Positions 15,421 to 51,400 of a stretch of DNA of 64,000 nt are shown here, piece after piece. A program made the position numbers and the translations under genes. The stretch is from contig NC_036445.1 in assembly GCF_002775205.1 (NCBI RefSeq), forward strand, positions 3,492,802 through 3,556,801, written 5' to 3'. How positions within the stretch are numbered: the stretch's first letter is position 1; the number at the start of each line of letters is the position of its first letter. The notes under the pieces are model-generated. The model was not told the origin of the DNA. It ran no database searches and worked only from the letters and a program-made list of their open reading frames with translations. The stretch is from Xiphophorus maculatus. Lineage: Eukaryota > Chordata > Actinopteri > Cyprinodontiformes > Poeciliidae.

Positions 15421-15507
15421 GTCACCCTTTCAGAGGCAGTTTCTGATCAACCTCACTTTGCATAGGAGGGCATTGACATGTTGGAAAATGGAGTTCAGTC
15501 TAAAGCA

Positions 15508-15735
15508 GAGGTGTCAAGCTCCAGGCCTGGAGGGCTGGTGTACTGCAGTTTTTAGATGTGCCACAGATACAAATCACTGGAATGAAATGGCTTAATTACC
15601 TCCTCCTTGTGTAGATCAGTTCTCCAGAGCCCTGCTAATGACGTAATTATTCTATTCAGGTGTGGTGCAGCAGAGGCACATCTAAAAGTTTCAAGGCACC
15701 GACCCTCCAGGACTGGAGTTTGACACCTGTGGATG
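15508..15735. repeat. Non-autonomous inverted-repeat element related to that at 826
   Basis: The left end is agaggtgtcaagctccaggc followed by ctggagggctggtgtactgcag. The right end, reversed, is acaggtgtcaaactccagtc followed by ctggagggtcggtgccttga. The interior shares ttctccagagccctgctaatga with ttctccagagtcctgctaat of the element at 826, so the two belong to one family or sister families. Confidence 0.6.
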
Positions 15736-23968: not shown

Positions 23969-26900
23969 TCAAGCCAACATAAAAATTATTGGCAGCAGGA
24001 GGGTGAGCATCAGAGAAGCAACCAAACCAGGAGAAAACCCAGGAACACTAGAATAAAAAGAAAATAGATGATTAAAACATTTTAAAATATTTTACATTTC
24101 ATATTTTGTCTGTCTATTAGATTATCTGCATTACAGCACTAGTTGGATGTCAAGTATTTATTTTAGTATTTATTTTCTGGGATAGTTGTGGTTATCTTAC
24201 TTGTGTAAGATTTGTACTTTGTTAAGGTGAAACTATATTTGACGCTAAATCTCACCCTTTTAAGAAACATGGGCCATTCTCCCAATTTGTAGCACGAGCT
24301 GTGATGTTCATTGGTTGCACTTGAGGACACGGTAGAGAGTTTCCATTAACCAGAGGAGTGACATCTACCAAAAGATAAAAAAATAGTAACAGTAAAAGAA
24401 AAGGTACATTCAGTTTAATCACCTTGACAAGGTTTTTATTTTTAAACAATCCTGACTTTTCACACCCACTCAGCCCATCGGTCCTATCCCAAGATTTCTG
24501 GAGATCATATCCATCTCATCAGTGTAGAAGAAGGTGTTTGACATATAACTGTTTAGTCCACACAATGGATGAGTCAGCATTGTTTCAGTTACCGATCTCT
24601 AAGAAAATTCTTTAAGAGAACTCAACATTATGAGTTCTTCCTACAAGGACTCATAATGTTGTTTATTTATTCCAAAGGAAGCTATATTTATTTAAATACA
24701 GTCACATTAAACAACAGTTTACTGAAGAAGCCTAATTTTATTTGAGCATTTTCTAATTTTCTGCAATGGTTTAAACATCTTCAATTTTCATTCAGTCTTG
24801 TTTTTGTTTGTCACATAAATAAAACCTCAAACACCCAGATGTTCTTAATAACTATAGCAGTGTTGTGTTTGCCCAAGTAATGCTGCTTTTTGCATCTACC
24901 CTTTTTATTAAATGAATATGTGGCTTTTATGGGTCTTTAGTATGAAAGCAATATCATACATGCATTTAATTTACTCTGAGCAAAACATGCCTACTTACCT
25001 TCAAAGCTGAACATGAAGATGGCACTACCTCCCTTCAGAAACTCCCTGGTTTGCAGTTCTTCCAAAAATGTGAAATAGCGGTACCCAAATAAAACTCCAC
25101 CATAGACTGACTCACCATTTTCATAAAAAACTATGCTTCCATTTTCACGAGGGTTGGCCCATGCACCGATACCTGTTTATATAAATCATTTTTAGCACAG
25201 GACAAAGAAGATATTGTTATCACTTTATTATTAGAGATTTTCCTTACAGTAATTTCCAAGTTTTATAGTGCACCTACCATTAGAGAGCTTGTGACTTTCG
25301 TGTGTAACTTCACTCCATTGCTTTGACATTTGCATTTTCATGTTAGGGGTTTGGTCTAGCATTTGGAAGGTCACTTGTTTTTGTAGACAAGGCCATTTCA
25401 GCTGGTCATCATTGTCACCAGACAAGATTTCCACGTACATTCCGATGAATGCGTGGTAGAGTCCAACAACTATCCGGTAAGCGTAGCCCTCTTTGGAGTA
25501 CTGCCGCGGACTGTATATTGCAGTTCCAAACCTACTTGTGTTTAAAAGTCTCTCTAAGTCGTCAATCTGCAGGGTCACATGTGGACACTCGGTCTCAGAG
25601 AGATTGATGTCATCAATGGAGAAGCCGCCTGTAGAGCTTCCTGCTCCTTTCCGAACCTCAAACACCACCTGAAAGGTTTTGGTGGCATTGAGAGAAACAT
25701 GATGGAGCTTCCAGTGAGATGTTGGTGGACCTGGGAACAATGTTTTTAGGTCACCATGATATACTATTTAAGTACCTTGGTTGGTGCACATGTAGAAATG
25801 CATATTGTCAAAACAAAATAGAATATAAAGGCCTTTATTATTGTGAAAATATAAGATACTTAGAGAAATTGCTAAAAGCATCCGCAAGATTTCATCGGCG
25901 ATTTTACCAGTGATCTGTCCCATGAGGCGGGGAGTTCCTGTGGTGTCATGCTCATCCTGAAACTCTCTGATCCAGATATTAAGTTCATCAGACTCATTTC
26001 CACTGTGGAAATAGTAAAACTGCAGACATTGGACTTTACATTCCCGTTTAGTGCTCATGATTTTGGTCCCAAGCCAAGCTGAATCTCCCACTTGATCTGA
26101 TGATGTGCTAGCATGGATGAAATATCCTGTTTCCTGACCTAGAATTATAAGGTTAAAAACAATTTGGTAATATCTTTCTTTCATCAATCTATATACATAT
26201 TCAGCTGAAACCAGATATTTATAAACATTGTCTAATCAGACACATTTTTTTCTCAATGAATCATAGTGAGTCAGATCTTTCCTATTTGAACATTCTTTAC
26301 TTCTAAATGTCAGGTTAAAATTTGTCCTGAAGTTAACCTGCAAATGTTTGCTGATGACACCATTGTTTACACATCGGACAAAAACAGTATTGAAGTCAGT
26401 GAAAAGCTTCAGAACAGCCTACAGAGATTATCATCATAGCTAAATGATTCTTGCTTAACTCTCAATACAAAGAAAAGAAAATGTATTTGCTTTTCAATCA
26501 AGAAAACGTCATTACAGTCCTTGAATATTCAGATCAATGGGAACCCTATTGAGCAAGTATCACAAGAAAAAATATTTAGGAATAATTCTGGATGCTCAGT
26601 TAAATGTTAGGAGCCTTGTTTTTCCTATGGAGCTACTGTCTGGTCTCAGACTACTCAAACTATACTCAAACCATTAGCAAGTCTCTATAATTGGGCTTTG
26701 AAGGTTTAATATCAAAAGCCAATCAGATTCCATCATTGTCACATTTTGGCTAAATTTGGCATTTTGGAGTTTTCTGATTTTATAAATTGTAATCTTTTAA
26801 AATTGATTTTTAAGTGTTTAAATGGATATGCACCTATACCATTAAGCAATTGCATACAGAGACTGCAGTTCAATAGCAGATCTACTAGAGCAGCTTCAGA

Positions 26901-29900
26901 TGGAAATTGTAAGGTCCCCTTTCGAAGAACCACTTTTGCTCAAAGTGCTCTGTCCGTGAGAGGATCTGCAGTTTGGAACTCACTTCCAGTTGATTTAAAG
27001 TCTGTAACCAGTTTTAGTACGTTCAAGAAACAAACAAAACTCTGGTTATGTCAAAAACAGAACTGTACCCATTTTTAACGTTTGTTTGTAGATGTCACCA
27101 ACATTATGCTGATTTTACATGATCATCATTTTTACTTTTAGATGTATTTTTTAAAAAGCCCATCTAGGGACAAGTGCTGCGAACTAGCTGTTGCTATTGC
27201 ACTATGACGCAAACATGAGACTGCTGTTTTGTTCAGTTTGTCTATGTCGATGTGTGTCTGTCAATATCAAATAAACTCAAATAAAAAATAAATAAATAAT
27301 TAGATACGTTTGTCTAAAATGTTAAAGTTAGTATGCAATGTCTAATTCGCAAATTTAAAATCACATATGTAGTGATGTCTAATTTTGCTTTATTTTATCA
27401 AGTCATCTTTCTCTCTCATTGTTCCTGAATTCAGCAAACAGAAATAATTTTGGTATTCCCAACAGACCTAAACATTAAAAGCAATATCTGATTAGATGTG
27501 TGGCAGTGAGAGAAAAAGAGACTATGTATTTTTTTATGACATGTAAATAGAAATATGATTATAACTATATATCATTTCACATATTCAAATATAAATCAGA
27601 TATACATGAACATGCAATTACATTTACTTTTGAGTAAATTTGAACTTTATTCTGTGTCTGATAATTATGCTATGTACAAACTATTTCATGTTTTATAATG
27701 TAAAATGTAATGAATATGCTTACCATTTTCTCCGTTTCCAGCAGGCAGAGTGGTGTGGTCAGTGCTTGGACCGCTATTAACTTGTGTAACCACTTCCCAC
27801 CCACTGCCACTCTGTGCACAGCTGTTCATTTGGCTCATTTGGCACATCATCCCATTAGAAAAGTCACAGAAAAACATAAAGGCAACTGTGGAATCTGTTA
27901 ATAAAATATTTTGAATATTTAAATCTTTGTGTTGACCAAAGTTTCATTTTTTCATTATTCATTATTCAAGTTAGCTAAAAGGATAGATACATACTACACC
28001 TTATCTAGATCAAATAATACTTTGGGTTAAACCTATCAGCAACTTCTTCCTTGAGTTCAGTGAGGATCAGGGGTGCAATGAAAAAATCTAATTGTCTTTA
28101 TGGCACAGTTTTTTTTTTAAATCTTTATTTTATATATAGATACATATACGTATGTATAAAGCTTTAAAGTGCCTTTTTGTTTTCAATTGTAACAGCCAAA
28201 AGTTTGAAATGCCACAGCCTCCCTATCTCTTTGGGACATTTTTGCACTCATTCACAAAAATTGTGCGCACTTATGAATGAATACACACTTTAGCACATAA
28301 AGTGTAAGTCTTTAGGTTTTATGTGTCTATATAAGATAATCTACAATTCACTTTCCATTGTTTTCTTCATTTTCCACGCTGTGGACATGTTCTATTGTTG
28401 TGCTTACCAGAAAAGCACATGTTCAAGGATTATTTACCTCTGATTTACTTAATTACATCAAAGATTTATTTCCATATGTAAATGGAAGTCTGTAATTGGA
28501 GGATTCTGGCGTTCAATTACGTTAGCTTAATTCTACATTGACTGTGTTTAAATTCATGAGCTTGCAAAATTTCATGCATCTGCATGTTTTTCCATTTCAC
28601 AATTTTCTCTATTTAGAGCTAAATCATGTTTTAATAGAAAATCCATAAAACTCTTTGTACTGTACAACAGTATACAGTACTGCTGTGACATTGCAGTGCA
28701 TGTTTCAATATTGCCAAAAAATGCTAAATTATTAATGTTGTGTCTTTGCTTAGTATTTACTTGATCAAACAATGCAATATCATCTTATAACTGAATTCAA
28801 TAGTATGTATTTTCCCAAAAACTTAACTAATTTAGTTGTTCCAATTCAAAACAATTTACTTAAAATGCAATGAAAATTAGCTTCATGAAAGTCCTGATAA
28901 TTCCTGTAATACATTAGATATTTTACCTCTATCACAAGTTTGACATTATGTTGTATATATATGCACAAAGACAAGTTTGACAATAAAATCAATTTCTTTT
29001 AGTAATTTGAATAATCAGTATTGTAGGACTTACTGCATTTGTAGAGAAGTTTCAACTTTTGAGCATCTCGAGGACTCATATCCAGTCTTTGACCAATAAC
29101 ATTTTGGAATTTGGGGTCTTTGGTAATAATTGTAGAACCATTGCCATTGCTTAATGCATATTTGCCAGAGTGCATCACTGACAGGTAGTCATATGACACA
29201 TTATGGGTGTCACTCAGATCACTGCCAAGCTTCTTCAAAAACACTTCTTGTCCTAAGAACACAAAAATACTCAAATACTGAACACAAGATTTTTTTTTAT
29301 GGAAATAGACTTAAAAATAAATGTTGTTAATGACTGACTATTCATAATTAGATATTATATATTAGGAATGCAAAATACTCATGTATTTTGCATTTCTAAT
29401 CCTGCTACAAATCTACAAAGTGGTTGAAAGATTTACTACACACTTTTTGTACAAAGTAGACAATCAAACTTCCTCAAATTTGCTTAAGCTACATGTAGCA
29501 CTGAGGAGATATCATACAGAATAAGCTATGTTGACCTGACTTATTATTTTTATGTAATTATACTTCCAATCCAGCAATTACAAAATGCTTTATACCCTTA
29601 TTTCATCAAACACCTTGTTGCAGCAAAATGGAACAAGTACACTGTAATAAAATGACTAAACCTGCTATGACGTTGTCAAAGTTTATCTGCACATAGTCAT
29701 CCCTGTCATGCCTGATTTCTTCATGGTAGAAGCCAAGAGCATGAAGAATCACATGTTCAACAATAGCAATGTGATCACAGCCTGCATCAATAGAGAGCTC
29801 CTGTCCGTCTTTGAATATTCGGCCAACATATGACCAGCACCTAGAACAGAAACATTACAGACTATTGTCAGAAACGGCAGCGTGAGTGCACATATTATCG

Positions 29901-31812
29901 TTTTACTCTATACTGGTCATAGCTAATAAGTGAATATACACTATTTATTATTTCTCTGTCTATTTTTCATGTTTTTTTAATCATTGTGAATGTATTATTC
30001 CTGACACAAGACTACACACAAATGTCAGTATTTTCACATTTGAAAATAAAAGTTCTGATAAGTAGCATTTATTGAACTTTGCATAAATATGCAAGACATA
30101 CATACCCAGCTAGGTTTTGGAACGAAAGGTAATACTCCTCAGTATCCCTTGGTTTAAATTCAATGCATGACTTCACCCTGAACTGGTCAAAAGCTCTCAA
30201 GATGACTCCTTTAGCATTCAGGTCTTTTGTCAATAAAAAAATAGCAGTGGAGAAGGAACAACAACAAAGACAGTTACACTCTTTAAAAAGTAAAACAAAA
30301 CATTTCACTTTAGTCTGCATTATTTTCCTAAAGGTGTGATTACTACTTTTTCATGAATGTTCTGCTTTCAATAAATGTAATCCTTTCTTTCCTTACCAAC
30401 TAACCAACACGCAACCAAAGAGATGTAATATACATATGTATATTTTAAAGTCAGCCAATGAAATTACCGAGGCTTTTGTCCAACACGTAGGGAACTGGGG
30501 ATTTCCACAAACCGGATCCTCCTAAAATAGTACTTCTTGCATTCTCTGGCACCTGAAATAATAATCATACGAGAAGAATTCATGTGACAATTTTTGTAAA
30601 ACAATGTTTAAAAAAATAAATAAATTCAAAGTTTGCCTGCAAAAATAAGAATCTTACCTCATGTATGTCATCAACTAACAAGTCTAAGATAAAACATATA
30701 AGTTAATGATTATTTTAAAGTAAAAAAATAGTAACTAAAAGGTAATAAATATCCATTGTACAATTTGATGTAAAAATAGTTTTTCTTTTAAAAGAAAATC
30801 AGTTTTACCATCTGTGGTGTTCTTGTTCTCAATGTCTGCAAAAAACACAAAATGACTCCTTTGGAGATCATAGTATGTAAAGACCAAACAGTAGAATTTA
30901 TAAAATAATATGAAAAACAAAACCAAGTACAACTTACCAACCATATCTGCTTCTTTCTACAAAAAAACCATGCATATAAGAATTAAAAAAAAAAAAAAAT
31001 CATATATAAAATCTTATAAGAAACAGATAAAATATGTTTCCTTTTTTTTTGGAAAAGTAGCTGTATTTTTCTAAATTAGACTATAAGTCATAGCAAATGA
31101 CAAGCAGTTCAATATATTTTTTAAAAGTTCAAATTTTTTGCCTTAACCAGTTTGCTGTTGTGTTGTGAGTCATTCCTGGATTTTTTTTAAAAGTAAAAAC
31201 GGGCCTTTTTTCTTCTTTAAATCAACAATTGTTTACAATGAATAAAATGCACATAGAGAAAGTTAAATTTTTATTACATGTTGTCTTAAGGAATGACTGA
31301 GAAAAATTCAGACAAGCTTAGAGTTGGTGAAAATGTAAAGTCAAAATAAATTTTTTTAGATGCAAAAAGGCTGCTTATAGGAAGCTTAAGGATGCAGACA
31401 AACATCCTGAATATGTGATACAATGTCATGAAAAACAGTATCTTGTAAAAAATAAATATACAACTGAATCATCTTATTTGAGGTTTGACACACAATCCAC
31501 TAATTTAACTGGATGTTGGATGTTTTGGTTGACTGTTATGGAAGATTCAACATTACATTTGTGTTTTTAAGATTTGCAGATAATATGTCTAAAATATGTT
31601 AAAAGAAAATCCATGACTTTCAGTTTATAACTCCTACTACTTTTTTGTTCTACGTCTTTCTTTTTAAACTTAAAGTAGATTACATTCAGTCGGTAACATA
31701 TGGTAGCTCACATAAAAGCATAGATACTTACGACGCTCATGGCAAGGGTGGATGAAACCACCAAGCAGACAAGAAAAAAGCTGTCTTGCATCTTCTTAGC
31801 TAGTCTTAGCAT
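23969..31812 (-). CDS. Meprin-like astacin metallopeptidase, copy A; catalytic residues lost (probable pseudoprotease)
   Basis: Fourteen exons (plus coordinates, 5' to 3' of the gene): 31732-31812, 30938-30956, 30809-30835, 30658-30683, 30468-30552, 30106-30223, 29662-29840, 29034-29252, 27724-27894, 25908-26138, 25278-25730, 24999-25172, 24256-24364, 23969-24047. They sum to 1971 bases, 656 residues. Order: signal peptide (MQDSFFLVCLVVSSTLA core); short acidic propeptide; astacin domain (about 85-255: [28 protein letters not shown]); MAM domain (about 260-435: [20 protein letters not shown]); MATH domain (about 445-590); hydrophobic tail (SLMLTLLLPIIFMLA). Zinc ligands H148, H152 and H158 remain, but the HExxH Glu is Val149 ([11 protein letters not shown]) and the Met-turn reads SVMHS instead of SVMHY. 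Meprins are secreted or surface proteases; this copy should bind zinc poorly or not cleave (inference). No frame break. Subunit orthology (alpha or beta) is undecided. Confidence 0.9.
24048..24255 (-). other. Last intron of meprin copy A
   Basis: It separates the MATH-distal exon from the exon encoding the hydrophobic C-terminal tail. The donor is ggg|tgaga-type read as AAAGG|gtgaga, the acceptor attctag. If this intron were retained, translation would stop at once with TGA after LKG. That would give a secreted, unanchored form, which is a possibility and not shown. Confidence 0.5.
24623..24661. repeat. 13-bp perfect hairpin in meprin copy A intron
   Basis: caacattatgagt (24623-24635) pairs with actcataatgttg (24649-24661) over a 13-base loop. 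The left arm also lies within a second overlapping palindrome, gaactca...tgagttc. Confidence 0.7.
26320..27300 (+). mobile_element. LINE retrotransposon 3' remnant (CR1/L2/Rex-like), antisense in a meprin intron
   Basis: A plus-strand sequence with a reverse-transcriptase signature: LQMFADDTIVYTSDKN (FADD at 26347-26358) followed by a degenerate YLGIILDAQL-like stretch. Then comes an open C-terminal segment (26746-27078) with NLLKLIFKCLNGYAPIPL and SVRGSAVWNSLPVDLKS, the typical end of fish LINE ORF2 proteins. It ends in an A/T-rich tail (aaataaactcaaataaaaaa). In-frame stops and frameshifts interrupt the region before 26746, so it is inactive. The 5' part is missing. Confidence 0.8.
29361..29400. 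repeat. 18-bp hairpin with one mismatch, MITE-like
   Basis: attaggaatgcaaaatac (29361-29378) pairs with gtattttgcatttctaat (29383-29400) with one mismatch, around a 4-base loop tcat. It lies between exons 7 and 8 of meprin copy A. A precursor microRNA would need a longer stem, so a small inverted-repeat relic is more likely. Confidence 0.65.
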
Positions 31813-33743: not shown

Positions 33744-36700
33744 TCACGGCACCAGAAGCATCGCAGCCAGAATGAAGATGAGGAATGGGTAGGGCGCCAC
33801 AGCAGCAGAGAATCCATGTGTGCTAGAAAAGTAAATAAATTATATATTGTAGATTTTAAGTACTTTTCAATAGTCTTGGAAAAAAGACATATCTATGTAC
33901 CACACCATTTACAGGAAAATTATGCAATAATGCCAACAATACGATTATAAATTATTGAGGTGAAAACGGGAACTTCCCATTGACACAAAGCAGTTTACTA
34001 AACAGGGTTACTTAAATATAAGTTAATATGCTATGCAATGTATTACTGTGATGTTTTGTTGCAAATAGTTTATCACTAATTTGCAACCGTCACTCACTGT
34101 GAGCATTGGCCTTCATCCAGGTTCAGGGGAGGATTTGTAATGTCCACTGGTCTTAATTGAGGACATGGAAGAACTGATGCAGTATTTAGTGGAGTGAGAT
34201 CTAAGGAAGGACAGTCATTACAGAAAGAAAATGCAGTTTCAGTTAGTTGAAAATTTTCACCTTTACAGAACCTTTTCAACAAATCACCAGTTTCAATGCA
34301 CTGGTATCTTGATGTCATTGTTGATGTTATCTTTTTTTATAGTAACTGGTATTTATCAATCAATAATGCCGTAATAAAGCTCTCAATATGCCTTGTATAC
34401 CAAGTGTTATGACTGGGTTTCCAAAATAAATAATACAATACTATAAGCATTATAAGTTGGTATTCTTATAATAATAAAAATACTGTAATGGTTTAAGAAT
34501 GAATTTGACTTCAAGTGTAAAAGTGTACATCATATGCTACTTCCCTCCCATCCCCACCAATTTATTGGAAAATTGAGTGTTTTATTCAGACTTCCCCCCC
34601 CTTTTTTTTATACAAATAGCTTTTCTGTTTTTTTGACATGGTAACAAGAAACAGAAGTGTATTCCACAGTAGACAACAATCCTAATGAAGATAAAATGTG
34701 ATCACAATGTCATGGCCAGTATTCATTTTATTCAGACCTCTACTTAAAATTAAAGCAATTTTTTTTCAACAAGTCCATTGTGTCCCTTTGATCCTTTAAT
34801 GATCAGTTGTTTTTTTCAAACTGGAACCTTTTTGTTTTTACTGAAAGCAGGAACCCTGAAGCATAACCTAGTGAAGTCAAGATACCTGAAGCTTCAAGAG
34901 ATGTACAATCATAGCAATGACACCACAGTGCTATGAAATTCAGTGTTCTTTCACATTTATTTTTAACAAAGAAAAACTTAACTTGCCTTCAAAGTTAAAC
35001 ATGAAAATAGCACTTCCTCCCTTTATGACCTCTCTGGATTGCAGATCCTCCAAAGTTGCAAAATCCGGGTATCCATAAAGAACTCCACCATAGACTAACT
35101 CGTCATTCTCATAAAAAAGACCAGTTCCAGTCTCACGAGGATTATCCCAGACAATAGTACCTGTATATATGAAGAAATGTATGATGAACATGGGATATGG
35201 ATTGTGCGATTTTACTTGGAATATGTTATTTTGCCATGATTTTCCTATTTTTTCATAAACATACCGCTAGAGCTCGTGTGAGTCTGGAGAGAAACAAAGC
35301 TCTGTTGTTTTGACATTTGCAGTTGCATGTTGGGGGTTTGATCCAGCAATGTGAAAGTCATTTCTCGTTGCAAGCAAGGCCACTTCAGCTGGCTATCATA
35401 TTTACCAGACAAGAGCTGCACAAACATTCCAACATATATCCTGTAATTCTGTACAACTGCTGCAACTCGATAAGCATAGCCTTCTTTGGAGTACCGTCGT
35501 GGGCTGTATATTGTGGTTCTTGAGGAACTTGTGCTTATTATTTTCTCAATTTCATCAATCTGAAGGGCCACGTGTGGACACTCAGTCTCAGAGAGGTTGA
35601 TGTCATCAATTGAGAAGCCGCCTGTAGAGTTTCCCGCCCCTTTCCGAACCTCAAACACCACCTGGAAATCTTTGGTGGCATTGAGAGAAACATGATGGAG
35701 CTTCCAGTGACATGTTGGTGGAACTACAGGGGGACATTTTGAAAGTTTGTTGAATTATTTAAGCAGAACTGCATGAACAGGTGAAAATGCATGTTGTCAT
35801 AACAAATGTAAACACTGAAAATTTTTGAAGTTAGTTTTTGTTAGTGTTCATACGCTACCACTGATTTTTTCCATGAGGCGAAGAGTTCCTTTGGAGTCCT
35901 GTTTATCAAACTCTCTAATCCAGATGTTCAGTTCATCAGCTTTATTTCCAGAATGATAATAGTAAAACTGCAGACACTGGATGTTACATCTCCTACTAGG
36001 ATGCATGATCTTGGTCTCGAGCCGAGCCGACTGTCCCTCCTGACCTGATGCTGTGCTGACATGCATGAAAAATCCTAATTCTTCACCTAAAATGATACAA
36101 AAGAAGATACTAAATCTCATCCAACTGAAGTTGACGTATACTGTATTGTGACTGAAGACATTTCAATTCTTCTGGGGTGAATAATATGTTCATCTTACAG
36201 CTTGAGGAAATTACAGCTTTGCAGTGGAACAAAGGGAACCAAAATAAAACACCTTTAATTGTTCAGAGTCAAAGATTTGTTGACACGATTGAGACATAAA
36301 AGTGTCCGTCACAATTCTGCTTGACCAAAAAAATAAATGAAATTATTAGTATAATCAGTTTGTGGGGTAAATTCTCCTGTGTCATCATTTCCACGAAGAT
36401 GTATCATGTGTATGAATAGTTTTCATTTATTTTCTTAGAGTTAATTAGAAATAATATGTAGGACTTACATGTGTCAGAAAAGAACATAAATCTGTTGGAT
36501 TATTTACAAAATAATTTAAACTTTCAGGTTTAAAATATAGATATTTTTTAATAATAATGATGGTTATTCTGAAATAATTATTTAAATCTTTGTTTAGGGA
36601 AATGAGAAAAACAATGAAAAATACATTATATCACATATGCTTAATTGTATTCAGCAATTTGTAACAAGAATATGGTATTTATGTTTGTGGTGCAATCGGT

Positions 36701-39700
36701 GGGTTGCCAGTTTGATCCTCACTCTGCCTGTCTCTATTGTTGTGTTCTTGGGAAAGAACCTCACCTGCTGGTGGGGATCAAGGAGCCTGGTGGCAGCAAT
36801 GACTGACAGCCTTGCCTCTGTCAGAGTGTCAGACCACTGGAGCTACAATTCAGTAGCTTCCCACCATCAGCGTGTGAATGTGGACATGACTGGGTGAATG
36901 ACTGAAGCTTTTTTGGGTCCTCTAGACTTGAAAAAGACCTATGCTAGTACATGCCACTTGTCATTTACCATTTAGATTTGAAAGCTTACCTTGATCTCCA
37001 TTTCCATTTGCTAGACTGGTGTGGTCGGAGCTTGGACCCCCATTAGCTTTTGTAACCAATTCCCAGCCATTCCCACTGTTTAAGTAATGATTCATTTGGC
37101 ATAAATCCTTATTAGAAAAGCCACAGTAAAACTTGAAGGTCACAGCTGAATCTGAGAAAGTAGAAATATGAATAAGAGATTTTTAATTGGCAACAGAATT
37201 GATTAATAAACGAGGACAGTTTGGTCAATATTGTCCTGTAAACATTACTGTATTATTATTCAGATAAAATATCAACAGCTTTTATGACATACAAACTATT
37301 TAAACTTTAGAAATTAAAAGAATAGAGAGATGATAAATCAACTTCAGTTGTTCAATTCTACTTTAGACTTTCATCTTCAATGAAATCACTTTAATTTGTC
37401 TAAAACAAAAATTGCTTGTTGACGTTAAAAAAACAAATTCTTCCACAAATGTCTATTGCAAGCTAAACTATGCAAAAAATAAAAATATATCTTCTAAGTA
37501 ACCAAATTGGGTTTGAACTTTGAAAAGTACAATTAAACCAGTTAAATTGAGATCTGTAGACAATGAGCCAGTTTGATTTCAATAATTTTAAAATGTTATC
37601 CCTACAAATGACCAACAATCTTTAAGCACTTACTGCATCTGTAGAGAAGATTCAGCTCTTGAACATCACTGGAACTCATTTCCACTCTTTGACCAATCAT
37701 ATCTTGAAATGTTTGATTTATGGTAATAATTGTAGGGCCATTGCCATTGCTGAATGCATTTTTGTGGTAGTGCATCACTGACAGGTAGTCATATGGTCTT
37801 CCATGGGTGGTACTGTCTTGATTGCCAACCTTTCTAAAACTATGCTCCTTACCTGCATGACAATGAGAAAAACTCATCATTAGTACAAAATTGTTTTTAG
37901 AAAAGAAAATAAAGATAAATGCTTTAAATTTTAACTAGCTTGTTAATGAGTATACATTAGACATATTCAACAATTTGTAGAAAAAAAAATATGCATTTAA
38001 TTACTGAACATATCAAAGCAGTTAAAAATAAATAAAAATGCCAAACCTGCTATGATGTTGCTGTATTCAATCTGCACATGATTGTCTCTGTCATATCTTG
38101 ATTGTTCATGGTAGAAGCCAAGAGCATGAAGGATCTCATGTTCAACAATTGCAACAAAATCACAGTTCTGTCCAATGGAAAGGTCCTGTCCATTGGAAAA
38201 TATTCTACCAACATATGACCAACACCTACAAAGGAAAAGTGATTATCAATGATTGTTGCATTAAAATTTCTGGTAACACTTTTAATATGAAGTTACTCTA
38301 GAAGTTGTCTTGAAAGTCTAATGCCAAGTTTGCATTATTTTGCAAATAATGATGCTTTACTGCAAAGTTGGCACTTTTAATGGACTTTTAAGGCAACTTT
38401 TAGAGTAACTCTGCATTTAAAGTGTCATTATTTAATAAATGACACTTCATGGCAACAGTCATAGACATTCATAAAGACTCCTTCATGTTCATGACAGGTT
38501 TTATGTCATGTTTATGACAGTGTCACGTCAGTCTCATGCACACCCTGTCAAATACAGTTTTACAAAATTTCCTCCCTTCAAATTACCTATTTGTCAAAAT
38601 ATATTCAGTACAGATCATATCTTCACATAAAACTTTTCACAAAGTAAAAGAGTATGTGAGATGGTCTTTGTTGCATTGTACAATTAATACATATATGGAC
38701 AAACTCTGCAACACAACAGTGTTGTTTACTTTATTTTTGAGTTTGTCTTTCTACTTCATCTTATCTTCAACCATAGATAAAATGATTATCTATAGATAAA
38801 ATGATTATCTATGGCTGAAGTTCAACCATAGAAGATTGACCTTCCCACTGCCAAGTTAGCACAAATCTAATACAATGCAGGGGCCCTTTATGACAAATGA
38901 AAAAAATCCCTGATATAAAACCAGAATTTTAAAGTCCAAATTAAACTCTGCTCATCTTTAACGGCAGAGATATGGTTTTATAATATATGATGCTATACAT
39001 TTATGATATACCAGGAAGGAAGGACTGTAATAAAAATTAATCATCATGTAATAATAAAGATAAACTCTAGCTAATGACGTTTGCAACCTCCCAAAACTGA
39101 TAGTGTAGTTGGCATCATTACATTTCAAAAGAAGCATAATAAAATGCTGTTTATCTTTTGAAACATATCATACTGGTTTCAACGTAACTGATTTGAACCA
39201 GCATGGTATAATGTTTACCAGTGCAGCTTTCAGTCTGAGCTTACTGAAGGTTCATAAATTAAAACTGATCAATTATATTCTTAGAGCAACATTTTTGTAT
39301 GTTAGATTTCAGATTATATATAGTGACAAATTCATGTCTACATTGACATTGATAACTGTCATTTCTGCTACTTTATAATACACTTTCTGTTATCTATCCC
39401 TAATAAATGGTACGTTTCCTGGGACAAAGGTGGTGACGGTGGGAGAAGTTTAACTGGTTAAAACCCTCACTTTGTCTAACTGAGTTGTGTCCTTGTTCAA
39501 GACACCACCCACCTTGTCTGCTGGTGGTGGTCAGAGGGCCCGGTAGCACAGATGTATAGCAGCTTCACCTCTTACCCCAGTACAGTTGTGGCTACAATGA
39601 CTTACGACCATCAACTTGTGAATGTGTGCATGAATGAATGAATGACTAAATGTAGTGTAGCGTCATCTGAACTTGATAAAGTGCTATAACAACAGGCCAT

Positions 39701-41050
39701 TTACCAATCCATTTGGGTAGATTTTATATATTTATTTTTATTAAGCATAAATGTTATTGGAACGGGAAGTAGGATAAATAGCTAAGTACAATTTTCAAAT
39801 TACTAGTGACATGTTGTCAGGAAGTAGCACAAATACAATTTACTGAAATTAAGCTTGAGTCATGCGGTTATAAATAATTTAGTTTCCTGGTTGAAGTTTC
39901 ATTTTTCAATTTAGGATAGGTTGCATTGGGAATGTATTTATTTGAAACTAAAAAAAGGTAGGAAGCAAAAAGGAAATGGTATACATACCCATCTAATTTT
40001 TGAATGTTAAGGTAATACACCTCTGAATCTCTGGGTTTGAAGTCAATGCATGACTTCACCCTGAACTGGTCGAACGCTCTCAGGATGACTCCTCTAGCTT
40101 TCAAGTCTTCCATTTTACATGAAAATAAAGGAAAAGATCATTTTATTTCAGATAATACATTATGTAATGATTCTAAGAATAACTTTCTAAAGCCATTAAT
40201 TTGAATATTCTGCAATTAGTTTGTTTTCCCTTTGCAATAACTGTGAGGCAACAACGTTTTATTGATACTGATCAGTAAAGTCTAAAATTATTTCATGATC
40301 CCTTAATTGCCTATACAATTCTACACCTACAATAAGACAATCCTAAGAATTTGAATACACTAATAGTCACAAATATTCTGGTAGGAGTGAAACAATATAT
40401 TTACCAAGGCCTTTGTCCAAAACATAGGGGACTGGAGAAGTCCACAGTTTGTCCCCAGGAAGAATGCTACTCTTTTGAGCATTTGAAGGCTGAGTTATCA
40501 GTGCATAAGACAAAAACATTTAAAACCCCAGAATGCATTCAATTACACCTCACTGGACTGCCTGCAAAAATACTGAGCTTACCTCCCGGATATCATCAAG
40601 TGTTAAATCTGAGAGAAACCATAGAAGTTAATTACTATACAAAGATGATTTAAAATGTATTGTTAGTAATAGGGTGACTTGAAAATCTCACCAGAGTTAA
40701 TTTACCAGAACAAAAACAGTTTACCTTCTGTGATGTTATTTTTGCCAACATCTAAAAAAAAGATTTTCTGTTTTGAGTTGCCAATAATTGAAGACATCAC
40801 TTGAAATAATTGAGTTTTGTTATTTAACATGAAAAAAAAATGCATGGGAGAACTTACACACTATTTCTACATCCACCTGAATTCAAACATAAAAAATAAT
40901 AATAAATAAATAAAAACAAAAAAATATAAAAAATAGATGCTACATTCTATAGGACAGCACCACAATAAACAAGATACTTACCTCTGGGATGGAGTGTGCT
41001 GATGAAACAGCCAAGATTACCATAAGAAGGATGTAGCTTTTTATCCTCAT
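33744..41050 (-). CDS. Meprin-like astacin metallopeptidase, copy B; catalytic site intact
   Basis: Fourteen exons: 40982-41050, 40858-40876, 40725-40751, 40583-40608, 40405-40489, 39989-40106, 38047-38225, 37634-37852, 36990-37151, 35859-36086, 35265-35723, 34987-35160, 34098-34200, 33744-33822. They sum to 1947 bases, 648 residues. Signal peptide [20 protein letters not shown]; short propeptide; astacin domain with [15 protein letters not shown] (H144, E145, H148, H154) and Met-turn SVMHY, so peptidase activity is expected. MAM ([20 protein letters not shown]) and MATH domains follow; the end is hydrophobic ([14 protein letters not shown]) with no cytoplasmic tail. Neither copy has the EGF module of mammalian meprins, nor a recognisable FxGD propeptide switch. 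The MATH-distal exon at 34987 uses a GC donor (GAAG|gcaagt), where copy A has gtaagt. It is the head-to-tail sister of copy A: exons 2-8, 12 and 14 are equal in length. Confidence 0.93.
36673..36965 (+). repeat. tRNA-derived SINE-like element in meprin copy B intron
   Basis: Starts gtggtgcaatcggtgggttg with a B-box-like cagtttgatcctc. It continues ttgtgttcttgggaaagaac, tgctggtggggatcaagg and cgtgtgaatgtggacatgac, and ends near gacttgaaaaagacctatgc...catttacca. This is the word order of common fish SINEs (tgtccttgggcaagacac; gtgtgaatgtgtg; aaagcgctatata; ccattta). It creates the 36637-36897 ORF, which is not a gene. Confidence 0.65.
38265..38560. repeat. Interspersed inverted-repeat element in meprin copy B intron
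   Basis: aagttactctagaagttgtctt (about 38291-38312) is an imperfect inverted copy of aaggcaacttttagagtaact (about 38390-38410). After it come palindromic modules (aaagtgtcattatttaataaatgacactt) and gtcatg-rich words (cttcatgttcatgacaggtt, tatgtcatgtttatgacagt). It is a non-coding, probably DNA-transposon-derived repeat; the family is not identified. Confidence 0.5.
38765..38835. repeat. Nested palindrome with internal duplication
   Basis: cttcaaccatagat at the left is complementary, with one mismatch, to atctatggctgaag at the right. Inside, atagataaaatgattatcta occurs twice in tandem. A further ttcaaccataga copy follows on the right. Confidence 0.6.
39430..39715 (+). repeat. tRNA-derived SINE-like element in meprin copy B intron
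   Basis: ttaactggttaaaaccctca (B-box-like), then gtgtccttgttcaagacacc, tgctggtggtggtcagaggg, aacttgtgaatgtgtgcatg and a gaatgaatgaatgac run. It ends cttgataaagtgctataaca and ccatttacc. It has the same module order as the copy at 36673, only partly diverged. Confidence 0.7.
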
Positions 41051-42101: not shown

Positions 42102-45100
42102 ATGGCTCTCACATATGAGGAACCACAACCAGAAAGTAAGTTTGTTAATATTTATTTTTGATGATATTGATATTTGTACTTTTTGATGGAGGCATTTCAT
42201 TCATTCCAGACTTGAACAGGTACTAGATGTTTTTTGATGTATCCGATTATGAAACACACATTAATTTATGTGTTATACATAATTATTCTTCTTAGGTTAG
42301 TCTCACAGTATTATACTAAAAAGGGACAGTAAGTTAGAAACTTCTTCTGCTCTGCAGTGTCCAGGCTGCATAGGCCTGAACACCGCAGGCTGCATAGGCG
42401 GCGGTTGACTTTTATTTCACACATTATTACGTCAAAATCCCTCTGTTTTAAGTTCACATAGAAGATGTGCGTTTTTGTAAAGTATTTTCCTAGTTTCGTA
42501 CGATTCAAAACCTTCTAAGAAATGCTTTTTACTGCGTCATTTATCCGCCCCGGCCTAGTTTCAAAAACTATGTGGTCTATACATATTAAAATTTAAAATT
42601 CATATTAAAATATTAAAATTTTACTGCTCTATAGAATACCCATAAATTGTATTTTTCTACCGTTACATATAAAGCGATTGCTGTAGGCTACTACGTTGCC
42701 AAAACGTGATTCAAAATCCTAGAATAAGAGAGAAGGTTTGAATTGGTTTTATATGGATCAAAGTAATGAAAAATAAATATCTTTTAGATAATACTACATA
42801 TGTTTTTCATTCTACAGTATTAGAGTGCATTCTTAAATTTTCTCAAAGGTTTCACTTCCTTTGTGTGAGCAATTACTGTGAACGGCAAATTAACATCTCA
42901 AATGTCATCTGAAGGCAAGTGTCTGAAATATATATTCAAATCACACAAACCACAGAGAGTTGCATTTTTAATAACAGTCCAAATGTATCCTATTTACAAT
43001 ACAATTACAACATATTCAGTTAAAATAGCTTAATCTTTGTCAGGAGGCACAGATAAATGCAGAGTCATTAACTTTGTAGCAGTCAAGAGCAAACATGTGG
43101 CAACGGGACATTTTCTTTTGAGCAGGAAGAAACCTTTAGCAGAACCAGTTCAGTAAATTTAAGCCATCTGCTTTAATTTGGAGATAAGAGTCACTATTTA
43201 AGCAGCACCTTACATCCACTGACCATCAGTTACTAATTTGTACTCAACATATGGTGCAAATGAACAGATATTGTTAATGTTTTCTCTTAGTGTCATATTT
43301 TTACAAGATTTTCTTCTACACTTTTTATATTATACACTTTCCGAATATTAAGTTGATGCGTTTGAATGTTGTTGCTTTGTGATCTAACCCTAACCATATT
43401 ATGTTTTAATCTTAAAGGTGGGAAAGACATACACACCCAGGAAAGTGGGTATGTTTATCCATTGTCTTCCCTTTTACTTTCATTTTGATAAATGCCAACA
43501 TTTTTAAATTTAAGCTAATATTTTCTGTAAACACATTTGTTTGTCTGTTACAGTGATGCAGGTTTCTCAGCTGACATAAAGCACGTCTTCAGTGACAATT
43601 ACCAAGACAACATTCCTGGATGTGGGCTGACAAATGCAAATAAAAAGAGTTCTGTGAGACCCATGTTTATTGAAGCAGAGATCTCTGAGCTGACAAAGAA
43701 GGAAATGCCAGTGGTGTTTGAGCCTAAGTACCTTGTGTCTACCGGGAAAGAGTTGGGTGAAGCGAGAAACAGGAAGCAGTCAAGCCCTGACCTGGAAGAG
43801 CAACCATTTCAAGGAAAGATGGACAGAGGACTGAAAGAAGTGTTTCCTCCATGCCGCCCGAGACAGAAAGCTCGCAAAAACATTCAAAAGAGTCATCCGA
43901 GGGTTCCAGGAAGAAGAAATACTAACCGCCACAGCACAAATTTAAAGTGGAAAACCTTGATTGGTGGTATGAAGTTATAAATCTTTTTATATTTCCTATG
44001 CTCAAAGTTAAAGAAATAATATGCATGAGAAATAAACACACATTGTATTTCTTGTCTGTTTTTACAGTGTGTTGTTCCATGATGACAATGCAGTTAGTTG
44101 TCTGTGACGCATCAGCTGGTATGTTCTTAAAAACTTTTCAATATAGTGCTTCATTTAACTCCTCTTCAAACCACCAGAAACATTTCACTTACAAAGCAAT
44201 AATTATTAGAGCACTGATATATTCGTCTATTTTAAGTGTAAAATTGATCGTCATTGAATAATGCAGGTTCACTACTTTCAATAAAATATGTTAAGGTTAA
44301 TGAGCCAATCATTAACTAAAGTTGGAAAGCTAAAACTAATTATGACTTAATTCAAACCTTCAGGATTTGACAGAAAAATTCAAAGATTCTATCATTCACT
44401 CTTACCTTTAGAAAAACTAAAGTATTATCTTATGAAGACAGGAAGAAGCCATCTGTGTGGATAGGCATGTATTCCAACTAGAGCGGGAATGTCAGTGCCC
44501 AACGGTGAAAAATACAACAATAATTTCCTCTACTTCACTATTATAAAAGCATCAAGAAGTTTATTTGTAGCCAACAATAATGAAGCATCTAATAAAGGTA
44601 GTCGGTATACTGCATGCAAACTGATGTAATATCAAGCCTTTCATATTTTAATCTGTTTTGATAATTGTTGATTGAAATCTGCATTTTATAATACAAGTAG
44701 TGTTTTAAGAATAGTCCTTTCTATCATTTGTGGCTGTCATAGATTAACTGATCTCTCATTCCTAACAAGACTTTGCAGCTTTACTCTCCAAACTAAATAG
44801 CAAAATAACATAACACCACAAACTATGAGACATTTCCAGTAGCAAAACATTTTTTTGCATAGCTTATATTCTCGTTTTTGTATAAAAAAACACATATGTA
44901 CTCCAAAGAAATGTTTATGTATTTGTGTATTTAAATGTGTTTTACCAGATCTGAAGAAAGTAGAAAAATTACAAGATTTTGTTTTAAACTTGTTACTCTT
45001 AGAACTAGTACAGGCCATGATAATCATCATAAGATTTGTCTTATTTTAACATCTTTTTAACATGATGTTGCTAACATAAAACCAAGAGTTTGAGTAAAAG

Positions 45101-47056
45101 GGTGTGTTATTTTTTTTTATCTGTTAAGTCACTGTTTATTTTCTCACGTTGGACCCACAGGCATTTGCTTCACCTGCATGGATAAGGCCAGATGTCCAAA
45201 CCTGATAACAATATATGTGAAAAATGATCGTCTGGTCTATGACAGACCCACTGAAGCAGAAATCCCAACGTGTTCTGGAGCCCCTCCCATCACACAGAAC
45301 TGTTTTGTGTGCCGGTCTCTGTCAGACGTGAACATCTACTGTCCCAACAACATCACAACATTTGAGGCTGAGGATTGCAATGGCTCAAGAATCACAAACA
45401 TCATTAAAGGGTGTAAGTATTTCATAAAGCACTTATGTATTATGAAGTACTACACAAGTGCATGAAAAAGAACTCAGCTGCAGTTCCTTCCAGAATATTT
45501 TAAACTCCTTGAACATTTTATATGTTGACATATTTTCATCACAAACTTAAGCGACGGACTAGAGCTGCCCAGTACATCAAACTGAATTCATTATCACAAT
45601 ATCAGTACACGTAGTATTACAATCACAAAGGGCCACTTGGATGCAATATTTGGTAGAATCTCATATTTCAATTGTTTTGCTTTCTCATCCTGTATAATTT
45701 CTAAGGTACTTTGCCAGTTGAATTAACTCTGACTTCAATTAAATTCAGTTAAATTATATTAATTCAATCCCCTTCGTAATAATAAATAAAACAAATGTCT
45801 AAAAAATTAGGCTTAAAATAAATCAATGCTATTATTGCATAAGTACGGTAATATAAGGAGTCTGAAATTTTTATCTAATCTTCTTTGCAACATAGCTCAA
45901 GGTTACGGAAGAGGATTAGGGCCACCGAAAAAAAAAAAAAAGAATTCTGAGATTAAAGTCTCAGTCTAGTTAATCTCAAAATTCTGACTTTAATCTCAGA
46001 ATTCTGACTTTAAAGTCAGAATTATTTTTTTCATTTTTTTGGTGGCCCTAATCCTCTTTCGTACAAGGTCAATCAGCTTAGATGAGGAGTGTCTTTGTAT
46101 AAATCTTACTTGAGATTGTTAACTGGTTTTAGGTCTACACTTTTTTCACTTATTTCACTTTTTTCTGTATAGTTTTTAACTCATGTTTTAGACATTTATT
46201 CAAATAATATTGAAATGCAGATGTGTTTAGAATGTTCAAACCTTGGGGACTCGTGTCGATCCAGAAAGCTTTGAAATTTCATCACCGTTTTGCCATTTTA
46301 AAGTAAACTGAAAAATATATGTGATATACCAGTACTTATAAATTCTAAAGTCAAAACAAAAGTTATACCTTGGGACTTATATCAAATGTTCATATTTCTT
46401 CTGTCAGGAGAAGATTTTAAAAAAAATCTCCTTTCCTCTCTTGTCAACTCTTTTGCCCATTCATCTCAATTTTATGTTTTATTTTTTGCCTTCAGGTGAA
46501 GAGCAGCAGACGTCTTACCTGGCACCTACTGGACCAGCTAACGAAGCGAGTATGTATATGGTTTGGATCACAACACTATTGGCCTTTGCAGGTCATTGAA
46601 ATTAACTGTGATAATTGTCATAAAAGCACAGTTTTCTGGTGCTCTTTCTTTTATTGCAATGTGGCAGAAAATAAAGGGTGACAATTCTAGTTGGCTGTAG
46701 GTTTGGAGTCAAACCACATATAGCTGGACAGAGAACTGATATCAGTACATATGGGTCTTTCTCTACCACTGAGCCCTGAGACAGATAGCAGGGCTGTCTT
46801 GATCTGTTGAGAAGGTAGTCAAGCAAAAAACAATTCAAAATGCCTTTGAAAATCTATTTAACATCTAGTTTTCATTCTAATACTATTTACTATTTTTGCT
46901 TCATTTGTAGGTCGCACTCATTTACTTACTGGACTCATGGGTAGTGTTGGTATGTATTATGGATCTTGTTGGTGGGATAAATTAACAAGCCTTTTGTTTT
47001 TTGTTTGACTCAACTTGTGTTGTCATTTTACAGTTGCTGTTGTGATGCTGCTCTGA
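42102..47056 (+). CDS. Unrecognised cysteine-rich surface protein 1, apparently with a long basic N-terminal extension
   Basis: Model: 42102-42135, 43418-43448, 43554-43966, 44068-44118, 45161-45412, 46496-46549, 46911-46949, 47034-47056. Total 897 bases (298 residues), every junction AG/GT and in phase. The last five exons match the neighbouring gene 2. They encode a weakly hydrophobic stretch (GVCCSMMTMQLVV), a nine-cysteine domain (CFTCMDKARCPN ... NCFVCRSLSDVNIYCPNN ... FEAEDCNG ... IIKGCEEQQT) and a short hydrophobic end (LMGSVVAVVMLL) like a GPI signal. The first three exons give about 160 charged, basic residues (KDIHTQESG, RPRQKARKNIQK, RVPGRRNTNRH) absent from gene 2. If exon 43554 is not spliced at 43966, it reads to TAA at 43978-43980, so a separate small gene is the alternative. 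AATAAA lies at 47284-47289. I do not recognise the family; no function is proposed. Confidence 0.65.
45903..46064. mobile_element. MITE with 24-bp terminal inverted repeats
   Basis: Left ttacggaagaggattagggc(cacc) and right ggtggccctaatcctctttc(gtac) are complementary at all but about one or two of 24 positions. The interior is a poly(A) run plus repeated gaattctgagattaaagtct / actttaatctcagaattctg words, which fold back on themselves. There is no coding capacity. It lies in the intron between exons 45161-45412 and 46496-46549 of cysteine-rich gene 1. Confidence 0.8.
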
Positions 47057-48420: not shown

Positions 48421-51400
48421 ATGATTCGTGCGATCACCAAGCCACTGGCAAAATGTAAGTTATTTTTTCAGTTTCTAATTAGTTTAGCTTGAACAAGTCA
48501 CTGAGAAACCTTGTATTTTTGCTGAATTTTATTTTTCTTTCACTCATCGTAAGCCTCAAAAACAATTCCTGGGAAGCTTAGGTGGTTAACCAAAACCCCC
48601 AGCCTTAAATAACATTATGAATGCAACATCCCTTTTGTTCTGGTCTGAATGAGATTAACACATTTAGTATCAACGCTTTTAACAGTTTTCATTCAAAGCT
48701 TTTAACAGTTTTCATTCAAAGCTTTTAACAGTTTTCATTCAAAACTTTTAACAGTTTTCATTCTCGGCTGGCATTCCAAGACTGTTCAGGTATTCCACAA
48801 TTTTTGACTATCAATATTTAATCATAATAATGATGTGTTAATGTCAAATGCTAGAGTCTTTCAAAATTATTTGCTAAATAAATATAGGATAATGGTGTAT
48901 CAAATAGAATGTGTGTTTAGAATTATTTACACATGTTTTAAATGTTAGTCTTGATATCTACACAATCAAAAGACAGGAAATGTTTGCTACATTCGTATTT
49001 ATTGAATTTATGAAACAGATCCATCTAAATGTTAAGTAAACATTCTAAGGTGACACCTGAAACAGTGATGCCAGTGGTCAACACTTTGTATCTGCTTTTG
49101 ATAAAATCCAGTAATCACATTAAAGAAACTAAACATATATCTTTTTGATTTTCCATGTTCTTTTCAGGTAATAAAACACACAAGAAACTTTATCCTCTGA
49201 GATATAAACCTGTTCTACTGAACATGTCCACCACATGTAATAAAACGTTATGACAGCAGAAGCAGCCATTACAGAAACTCTATAAGTTGCATCAGGCTTT
49301 CTGAAATGGAGGGCAGAAAAAGTGCAGTAGAAGATCTGAAAAGACAAAATCACAATAATTTATTTTGTAGAAAGCGAAAGTTCAGATTAACAATTATAAA
49401 TCCCTGCCAGTTAGGGATATGATATTTAATCTAGGTTCACTGCTTATATAAATGAAAACCATTATTTGTGTAAGTTATTCTTTGTTATCCAGTTCAATGC
49501 AGTTTTATTGTTTGTGTCACTATAAAAACCCTATAATTGTGTTTGACTGAATTTTATTTTGGAGTGTACCATATTGCTGTCAGGACTGTTATTATGATAT
49601 TAATGTCTTTGGAATTTCTTAAAAAGATATAAAAGGATGTTTATAGACAGAAAGTAACATGATAGACATAACAAAGTCTATTTTGTTACAATTCTTAAGT
49701 AATTTGGCTACTTTGTCGAATTACTTCTCAAGTTTCTTCAGCAATTTAATATATACATTATAAATTAATTATCATAAGTAGAAATGCACTTTTATTTCTC
49801 TTACAGTGTTTCTTTGCTGTCTGGTAGCAGTGAAACTAGCTACTATCTGTCATGGATCTGCTGGTATGTTTGTAAACACTTATAATCCCTTATTTTTATT
49901 TAATTGTTTAAAATGATTGGCCATAAATTGTAATTACCCTTGTTGAATCAGTAATGTATTTTTTTAAACAGGTTTATTATTATCTTTTAACTTTTACTCA
50001 GTGAACTTGAAGCACACTATGTGTTTATATATCGTCATTTTATCCACGTTTCTCTAGATTGGACGACACATGACTGCTTTACCTGCAGGGACAAGATCAG
50101 ATGCCCAAACATAGTGAGGATTTTTGGACCTCACGACTCTCTTCTCTTTGAAAAAGAACCTAAAGAAAACATTCCAAATTGTTCTGGAGTTCGTCCAGTA
50201 GGAAAGAACTGCTCAGTGTGCCATTCCAACTCCAGCATCAAAATCTACTGTCCAAACAACATCCAGAAATTTGAGGCAGAGATGAATGGGCTGAAAATTA
50301 CCAACATATCTAAAGGGTGTAAGTAAGGCATTGCAAAACATTAATCTTTGATGATGTTAAGTGACTGTTGTTTCACCACTGAAATAACATTGTTTAATAG
50401 CAAATCTGTTTTCTACTGTAAATTGAATATACACTGCTCAAAAAAATAAAGGGAACATTTAAACAGATATTTAACACCTAAAGTGTTCCCTTTATTTTTT
50501 TGAGCAGTATATATATATATATACATACAGTATATGTGCATTTTTATATATATAAAACATTTTTAATTTTTTTTATTAATTTGTAGGTGAAGAACAGCAA
50601 ACCACTAACCGTACATTCCATGGACCGACTACTGGTGCAAGTACGCATACACACACAGCAGAGTCAAAAAAACTATGCTCACTATGGCCTTTATTTTTAA
50701 TCAATCAGGACATGACCACCTATGTGATGGCATATTTAACTGCCCTTTGATGCTAAAACACCCATAGGTTATTGATGCATGGACTCCACTAGGCTTTTGA
50801 AAGTTGTCTAAAAGCTTAGTCAGGTGCATATGATTCCACTCTTTACAGTGTTAAAGTTACACTGATGTCCATACTAACTTTTCAGAGTTGATTTTACTTT
50901 GACTGGAGTTAAATTGAGTTACAGAGTAAACTTGATTAACAGATACATAACACTAGCAGCATTACTTTTCAAGTGTTATTCTAATTAATATCCAATAGTG
51001 TAACATGGCAAGCTACTGGTTTGTAACTACAGCAGTCTGACAGAAGCAAATCTGCAGCTTTGGCCATTGGCCTTTCTGACCAACATTAGCAGGCAAGGTG
51101 AGAAAAGTGTCTTGTCCATGGATACTGTTTTAAAAACTATTTTAACTCTTTTTACACCAGCACTGTAAACCTTAAGGGAGCATTTTATACTCCCTGTTCT
51201 TGAATTGACTCTTGAAGTTCTGACCCAGCCACTTAGTCATCACAATTTGGCTCCTATCAAATTTGCTTACCTATGAGAATAAAAATGCTTACTTATTGAC
51301 TAAAAGAGCAATATTATTCACTTCCCCTGTCAGTAGTCACTATATTATGAATGACTAGCGACACAGCAGATAATTAGTCACTAGATGTTGGGCAGATTGT

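Follow-up and report, generated by a model that had tools for sequence, protein, structure and literature searches.

Pseudopeptidases have been described among the ADAMs (M12) and the M14 carboxypeptidases. According to a 2024 review of inactive metallopeptidases (PMC11266112), the catalytic Glu and/or the zinc ligands have disappeared from the pseudopeptidase ADAMs (ADAM2, 7, 11, 22, 23 and others), but the Met-turn is typically retained; binding is the mode of action of ADAM22 and ADAM23, and in the sperm proteins ADAM1, 2 and 3 the domain is discarded. The word meprin does not occur in the main text of that review. Decoy or accessory functions are expected for inactive ADAMs (PMC3650047), and the CLCA zincins (CLCA_N, PF08134), a zincin family different from the astacins, are presented in the same source as including both intact and substituted HExxH active sites.

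Among the astacins, the closest described counterparts of the locus analyzed here include the meprin-F proteins, defined as MEP1B duplicates of bony fishes (Marin 2015, PMC4545420). As reported there, Poecilia formosa carries at least four meprin-F genes in tandem, and Poecilia meprin-F1 and F2 have Ser in place of the Met-turn Tyr while keeping the Glu, a substitution that is not found in every meprin-F. In the published description of the astacin mechanism, the Glu serves as general base/acid, and the Tyr, itself a zinc ligand, swings away to stabilize the reaction intermediate (PMC9848320). For human meprin beta, the laboratory mutant E153A, from which this Glu has been removed, is reported to leave latrophilin-3 uncleaved (PMC11976865) and still to interact with galectin-3 (PMC10065446). 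A natural meprin without the catalytic Glu is named in none of the titles and abstract openings of the literature matches listed, and the wider literature could hold one.

Within a 64-kb stretch of DNA (the window), there are two adjacent meprin genes on the same strand, denoted here copies A and B, which form a tandem with the same domain plan. Copy A resembles the meprin-F proteins in being tandem, apparently MEP1B-like and equipped with MAM and MATH domains (EGF is often missing in fish meprins; PMC4545420), and it shares with Poecilia F1 and F2 a Ser (codon TCT) at the Met-turn Tyr. Unlike the selected meprin sequences aligned in that work, all of which contain HEXXHXXGXXH, copy A also lacks the Glu. 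The same Glu is removed in E153A, which, in contrast to copy A, is a mutant and not a natural sequence. With human meprin beta (PDB 4gwm), copy A shares the zinc-binding His residues, the latency Asp, the activation site and the Astacin, MAM and MATH domains, and differs from it in lacking an EGF match, a cytoplasmic tail, the intersubunit Cys and Y211. The ADAMs belong to another metzincin family, and many of them, as described in the review, have also lost the zinc ligands that copy A keeps (PMC11266112).

Gene structure and active site of copy A

Gene models were built for both copies one exon at a time (Table 1). Copy A consists of 14 exons (31791-23969, minus strand), all open and free of internal stops, with GT-AG boundaries at 13 of 13 introns. 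Copy B (41050-33744, minus strand) also has 14 exons, in the same phases, with 12 GT-AG introns and one GC-AG intron; the GC donor (gcaagt) is located at exon 12 (34986-34981, minus strand), where copy A has GT. From exon 2 onward, the exon lengths of the two copies differ by whole codons only. Exon 1 of copy A, whose homology to exon 1 of copy B is weak, was placed from its location, its frame, its signal-like character and the identical donor context. Self-comparison of the 64-kb window (E-values up to 1e-8) yielded no meprin copies beyond this pair.

Table 1. Positions of the features of copies A and B in the window
Feature	Position	Strand	Remarks
Copy A, exon 1, signal peptide	31732..31791	-	a further ATG in frame at 31812; donor GTAAGTAT, the same as in copy B
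Copy A, exons 2-5: prodomain with Asp52, activation Arg61, mature N-terminus	30468..30956	-	exon 2, 30956-30938; exon 3, 30835-30809; exon 4, 30683-30658; exon 5, 30552-30468
Copy A, exon 6, N-terminal region of the astacin domain	30106..30223	-	
Copy A, exon 7, zinc-binding helix	29662..29840	-	pairwise dN/dS with copy B, 0.23
Copy A, zinc motif, three zinc His kept	29723..29755	-	direct read and motif search
Copy A, GTG codon (Val) at the general-base Glu (human meprin beta E153)	29750..29752	-	direct read
Copy A, exon 8, Met-turn, with Ser in place of the Tyr of human meprin beta (Y211)	29034..29252	-	
Copy A, exons 9-11: MAM and start of MATH	25278..27894	-	27894-27724, 26138-25908, 25730-25278
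Copy A, exon 12, remaining part of MATH	24999..25172	-	
Copy A, exons 13-14, without EGF match, hydrophobic end	23969..24364	-	24364-24256, 24047-23969
Copy B, catalytically complete sister	33744..41050	-	exon 1, 41050-40982; exon 8, 37852-37634 (SVMHY); last exon, 33822-33744

The initial annotation had reported that copy A lost the catalytic Glu (HExxH to HVxxH), and direct reading of the minus strand bears this out: the codons at 29755-29723 are CAT GTG ATT CTT CAT GCT CTT GGC TTC TAC CAT, with GTG (Val) at the general-base position, a single-base difference from the GAG of copy B, in which the zinc-binding motif with the Glu intact lies at 38140-38108 (minus strand). The span originally given for this change, 29748-29755, comprises the His and Val codons together with two bases of the following codon. 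A degenerate search for the motif (at most two mismatches) recovered exactly two sites, those of copies A and B, compared with 0 in 100 shuffles; the motif pattern also occurs in 100 stretches of viral and 57 stretches of bacterial and archaeal contigs, among which no relative was confirmed. The GTG codon is not part of a homopolymer, and the window contains no N.

The Glu is not the only catalytic residue that is gone. The Met-turn in exon 8 reads YDYLSVMHS in copy A (29252-29034) and YDYLSVMHY in copy B, compared with YDYTSVMHY and YDYESLMHY in human meprins beta and alpha, respectively, and the replacement of Tyr by Ser in copy A is a two-base difference (TCT vs TAC). In human meprin beta numbering, the two losses are E153V and Y211S. 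Copy A accordingly lacks both the HEXXHXXGXXH motif with the general-base Glu and the SxMHY Met-turn with the zinc-ligand Tyr that characterize active astacins (SVMHS in its place), whereas copy B has both (SVMHY). The initial view of a 14-exon gene that is otherwise intact holds for the frame and the splice sites but not for the active site, and the damage was understated: two catalytic residues are lost in copy A, the second being the Met-turn Tyr.

Much of the surrounding site is retained. In human meprin beta numbering, the three zinc-binding His (H152, H156 and H162) are kept, as are E163, the Met-turn M209, R238, the latency Asp of the prodomain (D52), the activation-site Arg (R61) and the cysteines 103, 124, 144 and 255 of the catalytic domain. 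The motif neighbors Q164 and S165 are altered in copy A alone, position 164 being Glu in copy A and Gln in copy B and both human meprins.

At a distance of about 18 kb from copy B, the remainder of the window contains an LSR (lipolysis stimulated receptor) domain (PF05624, E 1.8e-22; 59406-59606, plus strand), accompanied by a V-set match below its cut-off (58075-58338). Taken together, the LSR domain and the meprins suggest that the window is vertebrate, and the likeness to meprin-F would point to a bony fish. The neighbors of MEP1B given by Marin are TRAPPC8, RNF125 and RNF138 (PMC4545420). Two similar cysteine-rich open frames (45094-45462 and 49991-50323, plus strand; 67% DNA identity over 254 bases) have no Pfam match at 0.01, and the best PDB match of the frame at 49991-50323 does not reach significance (E 0.33); these frames are possibly a tandemly duplicated gene that matches no Pfam family. 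The Pfam scan of other open frames covered 20 of 139 (at least 62 residues, outside the meprin genes). A dispersed repeat connects 820-1042 with 15495-15720 (75% identity) and 156-350 with the inverse of 849-1042 (70%), and no RNA family in the window reaches its gathering score.

Evolutionary constraint on copy A

The two copies have diverged from human meprin beta to nearly the same extent. Across 548 positions free of gaps (prodomain through MATH, with exon 1 and the tail left out), 41 changes are specific to copy A and 42 to copy B, with 198 positions kept by both copies and 267 changed in both; the lone changes are distributed 8:8 (A:B) in MAM and 13:11 in MATH. At the 244 positions where human alpha and beta agree, 21 changes are unique to copy A and 16 to copy B, and in the catalytic domain the corresponding numbers are 13 and 7 (p 0.26). 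At the motifs, 4 lone changes fall to copy A and 0 to copy B, an excess that does not reach significance (p 0.12). Clustering of the A-specific changes at the active site (residues 141-222; 11 of 21 vs 4 of 16, p 0.18) is suggestive only and was not accepted.

When the two copies are compared by the Nei-Gojobori method over 623 codons, without exon 1, dN is 0.260, dS is 0.707 and omega is 0.37 (bootstrap range, 0.29-0.47), a value from one genome that averages over history and cannot isolate selection after the losses. If copy A had been neutral since the duplication, a pairwise omega of about 0.5 or more would be expected. By domain, omega is 0.58 (0.00-1.70) in the prodomain, 0.33 (0.21-0.49) in the catalytic domain, 0.41 (0.25-0.65) in MAM, 0.24 (0.13-0.39) in MATH and 0.74 (0.39-1.35) in the tail; the intervals for MAM and the tail include 0.5. 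The zinc-helix exon has an omega of 0.23 and the Met-turn exon one of 0.71, the highest among the six exons that exceed 50 codons and a point against full constraint; omega reaches 0.88 at codons 161-220, which may mean drift in a section of the dead domain. Values between 0.67 and 1.19 are seen in the short exons 2, 3, 13 and 14. Gene conversion was considered for the low dS of the Met-turn exon (0.42 vs 0.71 overall) and was rejected because the difference is not significant (p 0.07).

The intactness of the frame sets a bound on any neutral period. With nonsense, splice and frameshift targets and assumed indel rates of 0-0.1 per substitution, the 5% bound corresponds to d of about 0.011-0.025, that is, about 3-7% of a branch of about 0.35. 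The chance of two catalytic hits within the neutral time so bounded is about 0.001-0.004, and that of the second hit alone 0.03-0.065, under the assumed rates; the bound on the neutral share from relative rates is looser, up to 0.18-0.48. The suggestion of the initial annotation that copy A is a maintained pseudoprotease is supported by the intact frame and splice sites, the equal rates of the two copies, the pairwise dN/dS of about 0.37 and the two-site catalytic loss, and appears to be the best reading of the gene. Judged from one genome and pairwise data, copy A combines the loss of catalytic residues with maintenance of the gene, the combination by which pseudopeptidases are recognized.

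Domain architecture and membrane attachment

Copy A matches, in order, the Pfam domains Astacin (PF01400, 1.1e-55), MAM (4.6e-32) and MATH_2 (1.8e-11), and the order Astacin, MAM, MATH is also found in copy B (PF01400, E 3.7e-64). The Astacin score of copy A (188.7 bits) is below that of copy B (216.3 bits), and an EGF domain was matched in neither copy (Pfam, E up to 0.001). The best PDB match of copy A is human meprin beta (E 1.8e-143), followed by alpha, with bit scores of 482 and 339, respectively, in a comparison with human references only.

At both C-termini (24047-23969 and 33822-33744, minus strand), the final 20 residues are hydrophobic, with no charged residue and no cytoplasmic tail, and the mean hydropathy over the last 16 residues of copy A is 2.43. 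These C-termini resemble a GPI signal and would be consistent with membrane or GPI attachment. Copy A has the domain set of a meprin, Astacin, MAM, MATH and a C-terminal membrane segment, the latter as predicted from hydropathy. Counted from exon 2, copy A has 10 N-glycosylation sequons and copy B has 5.

Neither copy (27894-25278 and 37151-35265, minus strand) has the MAM cysteine through which meprin subunits are linked, C305 in human meprin beta. The abstract of Marin 2015 (PMC4545420) does not include this cysteine in the definition of meprins. In the alpha mutant C308A, as reported, the covalent dimer is lost, with a monomer seen on SDS-PAGE, and non-covalent association remains. Copies A and B share an extra Cys, inside an insertion of two residues that precedes human beta C340, and each has a MAM cysteine of its own, at 278 in copy A and at 383 in copy B.

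Possible functions of copy A

Based on the above considerations, copy A probably encodes a membrane-tethered secreted meprin that is unable to cut and acts as a non-cutting surface binder or decoy, a reading to which we assign a probability of roughly 0.6. The substitutions E153V and Y211S would remove the general base and the Tyr that serves as zinc ligand and steadies the intermediate, so that the astacin domain of copy A would no longer cut. The kept His, Met, cysteines, latency Asp and activation site suggest that the fold and zinc binding are retained and that the prodomain can be removed. At the cell surface, copy A might occupy substrates or ligands that the active sister, copy B, would cleave or, alternatively, might hold such ligands at the membrane. 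The behavior of E153A, which is inactive yet interacts with galectin-3, indicates that a meprin without the Glu can bind without cutting and lends support to a non-cutting binder or decoy.

The initial annotation also raised the possibility of a regulatory partner, on the grounds that meprins oligomerise. Copy A would then be a subunit that alters the activity, placement or substrate choice of its partner, be it active copy B or another meprin. This reading draws on the position of copy A beside a same-strand tandem sister with an identical domain plan, on the published observation that meprins alpha and beta form heterodimers, and on the even distribution of changes in MAM and MATH. It is weakened by the absence of the intersubunit Cys from both copies, given that its counterpart is needed for the covalent dimer in alpha, and by the difference between the extra MAM cysteines of the two copies; non-covalent pairing of the kind that persists in C308A could still occur, and on balance we regard a regulatory subunit as rather unlikely. 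It is also unlikely, to a slightly greater degree, that copy A is a recently dead gene in which catalysis was lost and constraint ended before the frame could break. The omega of the Met-turn exon, a slight surplus of changes around the active site that falls short of significance and the Astacin score below that of copy B are what such a gene might display, but frame, stop and splice damage are all absent, two catalytic hits in the short neutral time allowed under the assumed rates are improbable, and the Tyr loss would be old if the Ser is common to Poecilia F1 and F2.

The remaining explanations concern the Glu position itself. A sequencing error or a rare allele, such that the meprin-F of the species has the Met-turn Ser with the Glu intact, would agree with the one-base difference and with the conservation of the motif in all the selected meprins that Marin aligned; we consider it quite improbable, as the codon lies outside any homopolymer in a window free of Ns, Q164 and S165 are also changed in copy A alone, and the Tyr loss is a two-base difference from copy B. 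Weak or different catalysis, with another base acting at the intact zinc site, could be imagined from the three zinc His and Arg238 that are kept and from the Glu at position 164, which is Gln in copy B and the human meprins. It is very improbable, given that E153A is used, according to the reports on human meprin beta, as a catalytically inactive control and that the zinc-ligand Tyr of copy A is gone as well.

To return to the surface binder or decoy, a more specific version places copy A in a lineage. The Met-turn Tyr loss is already published for related fish proteins, and the Glu loss in copy A goes one step further; copy A looks like the Poecilia meprin-F1/F2 lineage after a second loss. 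Provided that copy A is orthologous to these proteins, loss of the Tyr preceded that of the Glu. The full version, in which copy A represents a maintained fish branch of pseudo-meprins that lost the Tyr and then the Glu stepwise, kept the zinc site, the latency Asp and the activation site, and serves as a GPI-tethered binder or decoy opposing or steering its active tandem sister, is tentative and should be taken as a possibility somewhat short of even odds. If so, copy A would suggest that the Ser of Poecilia meprin-F1 and F2 is a first step away from proteolysis. Copy A probably makes a binding protein unable to cut, and a tandem pair in which one member looks active and the other dead but conserved would make the roles of decoy, partner and receptor testable in one locus.
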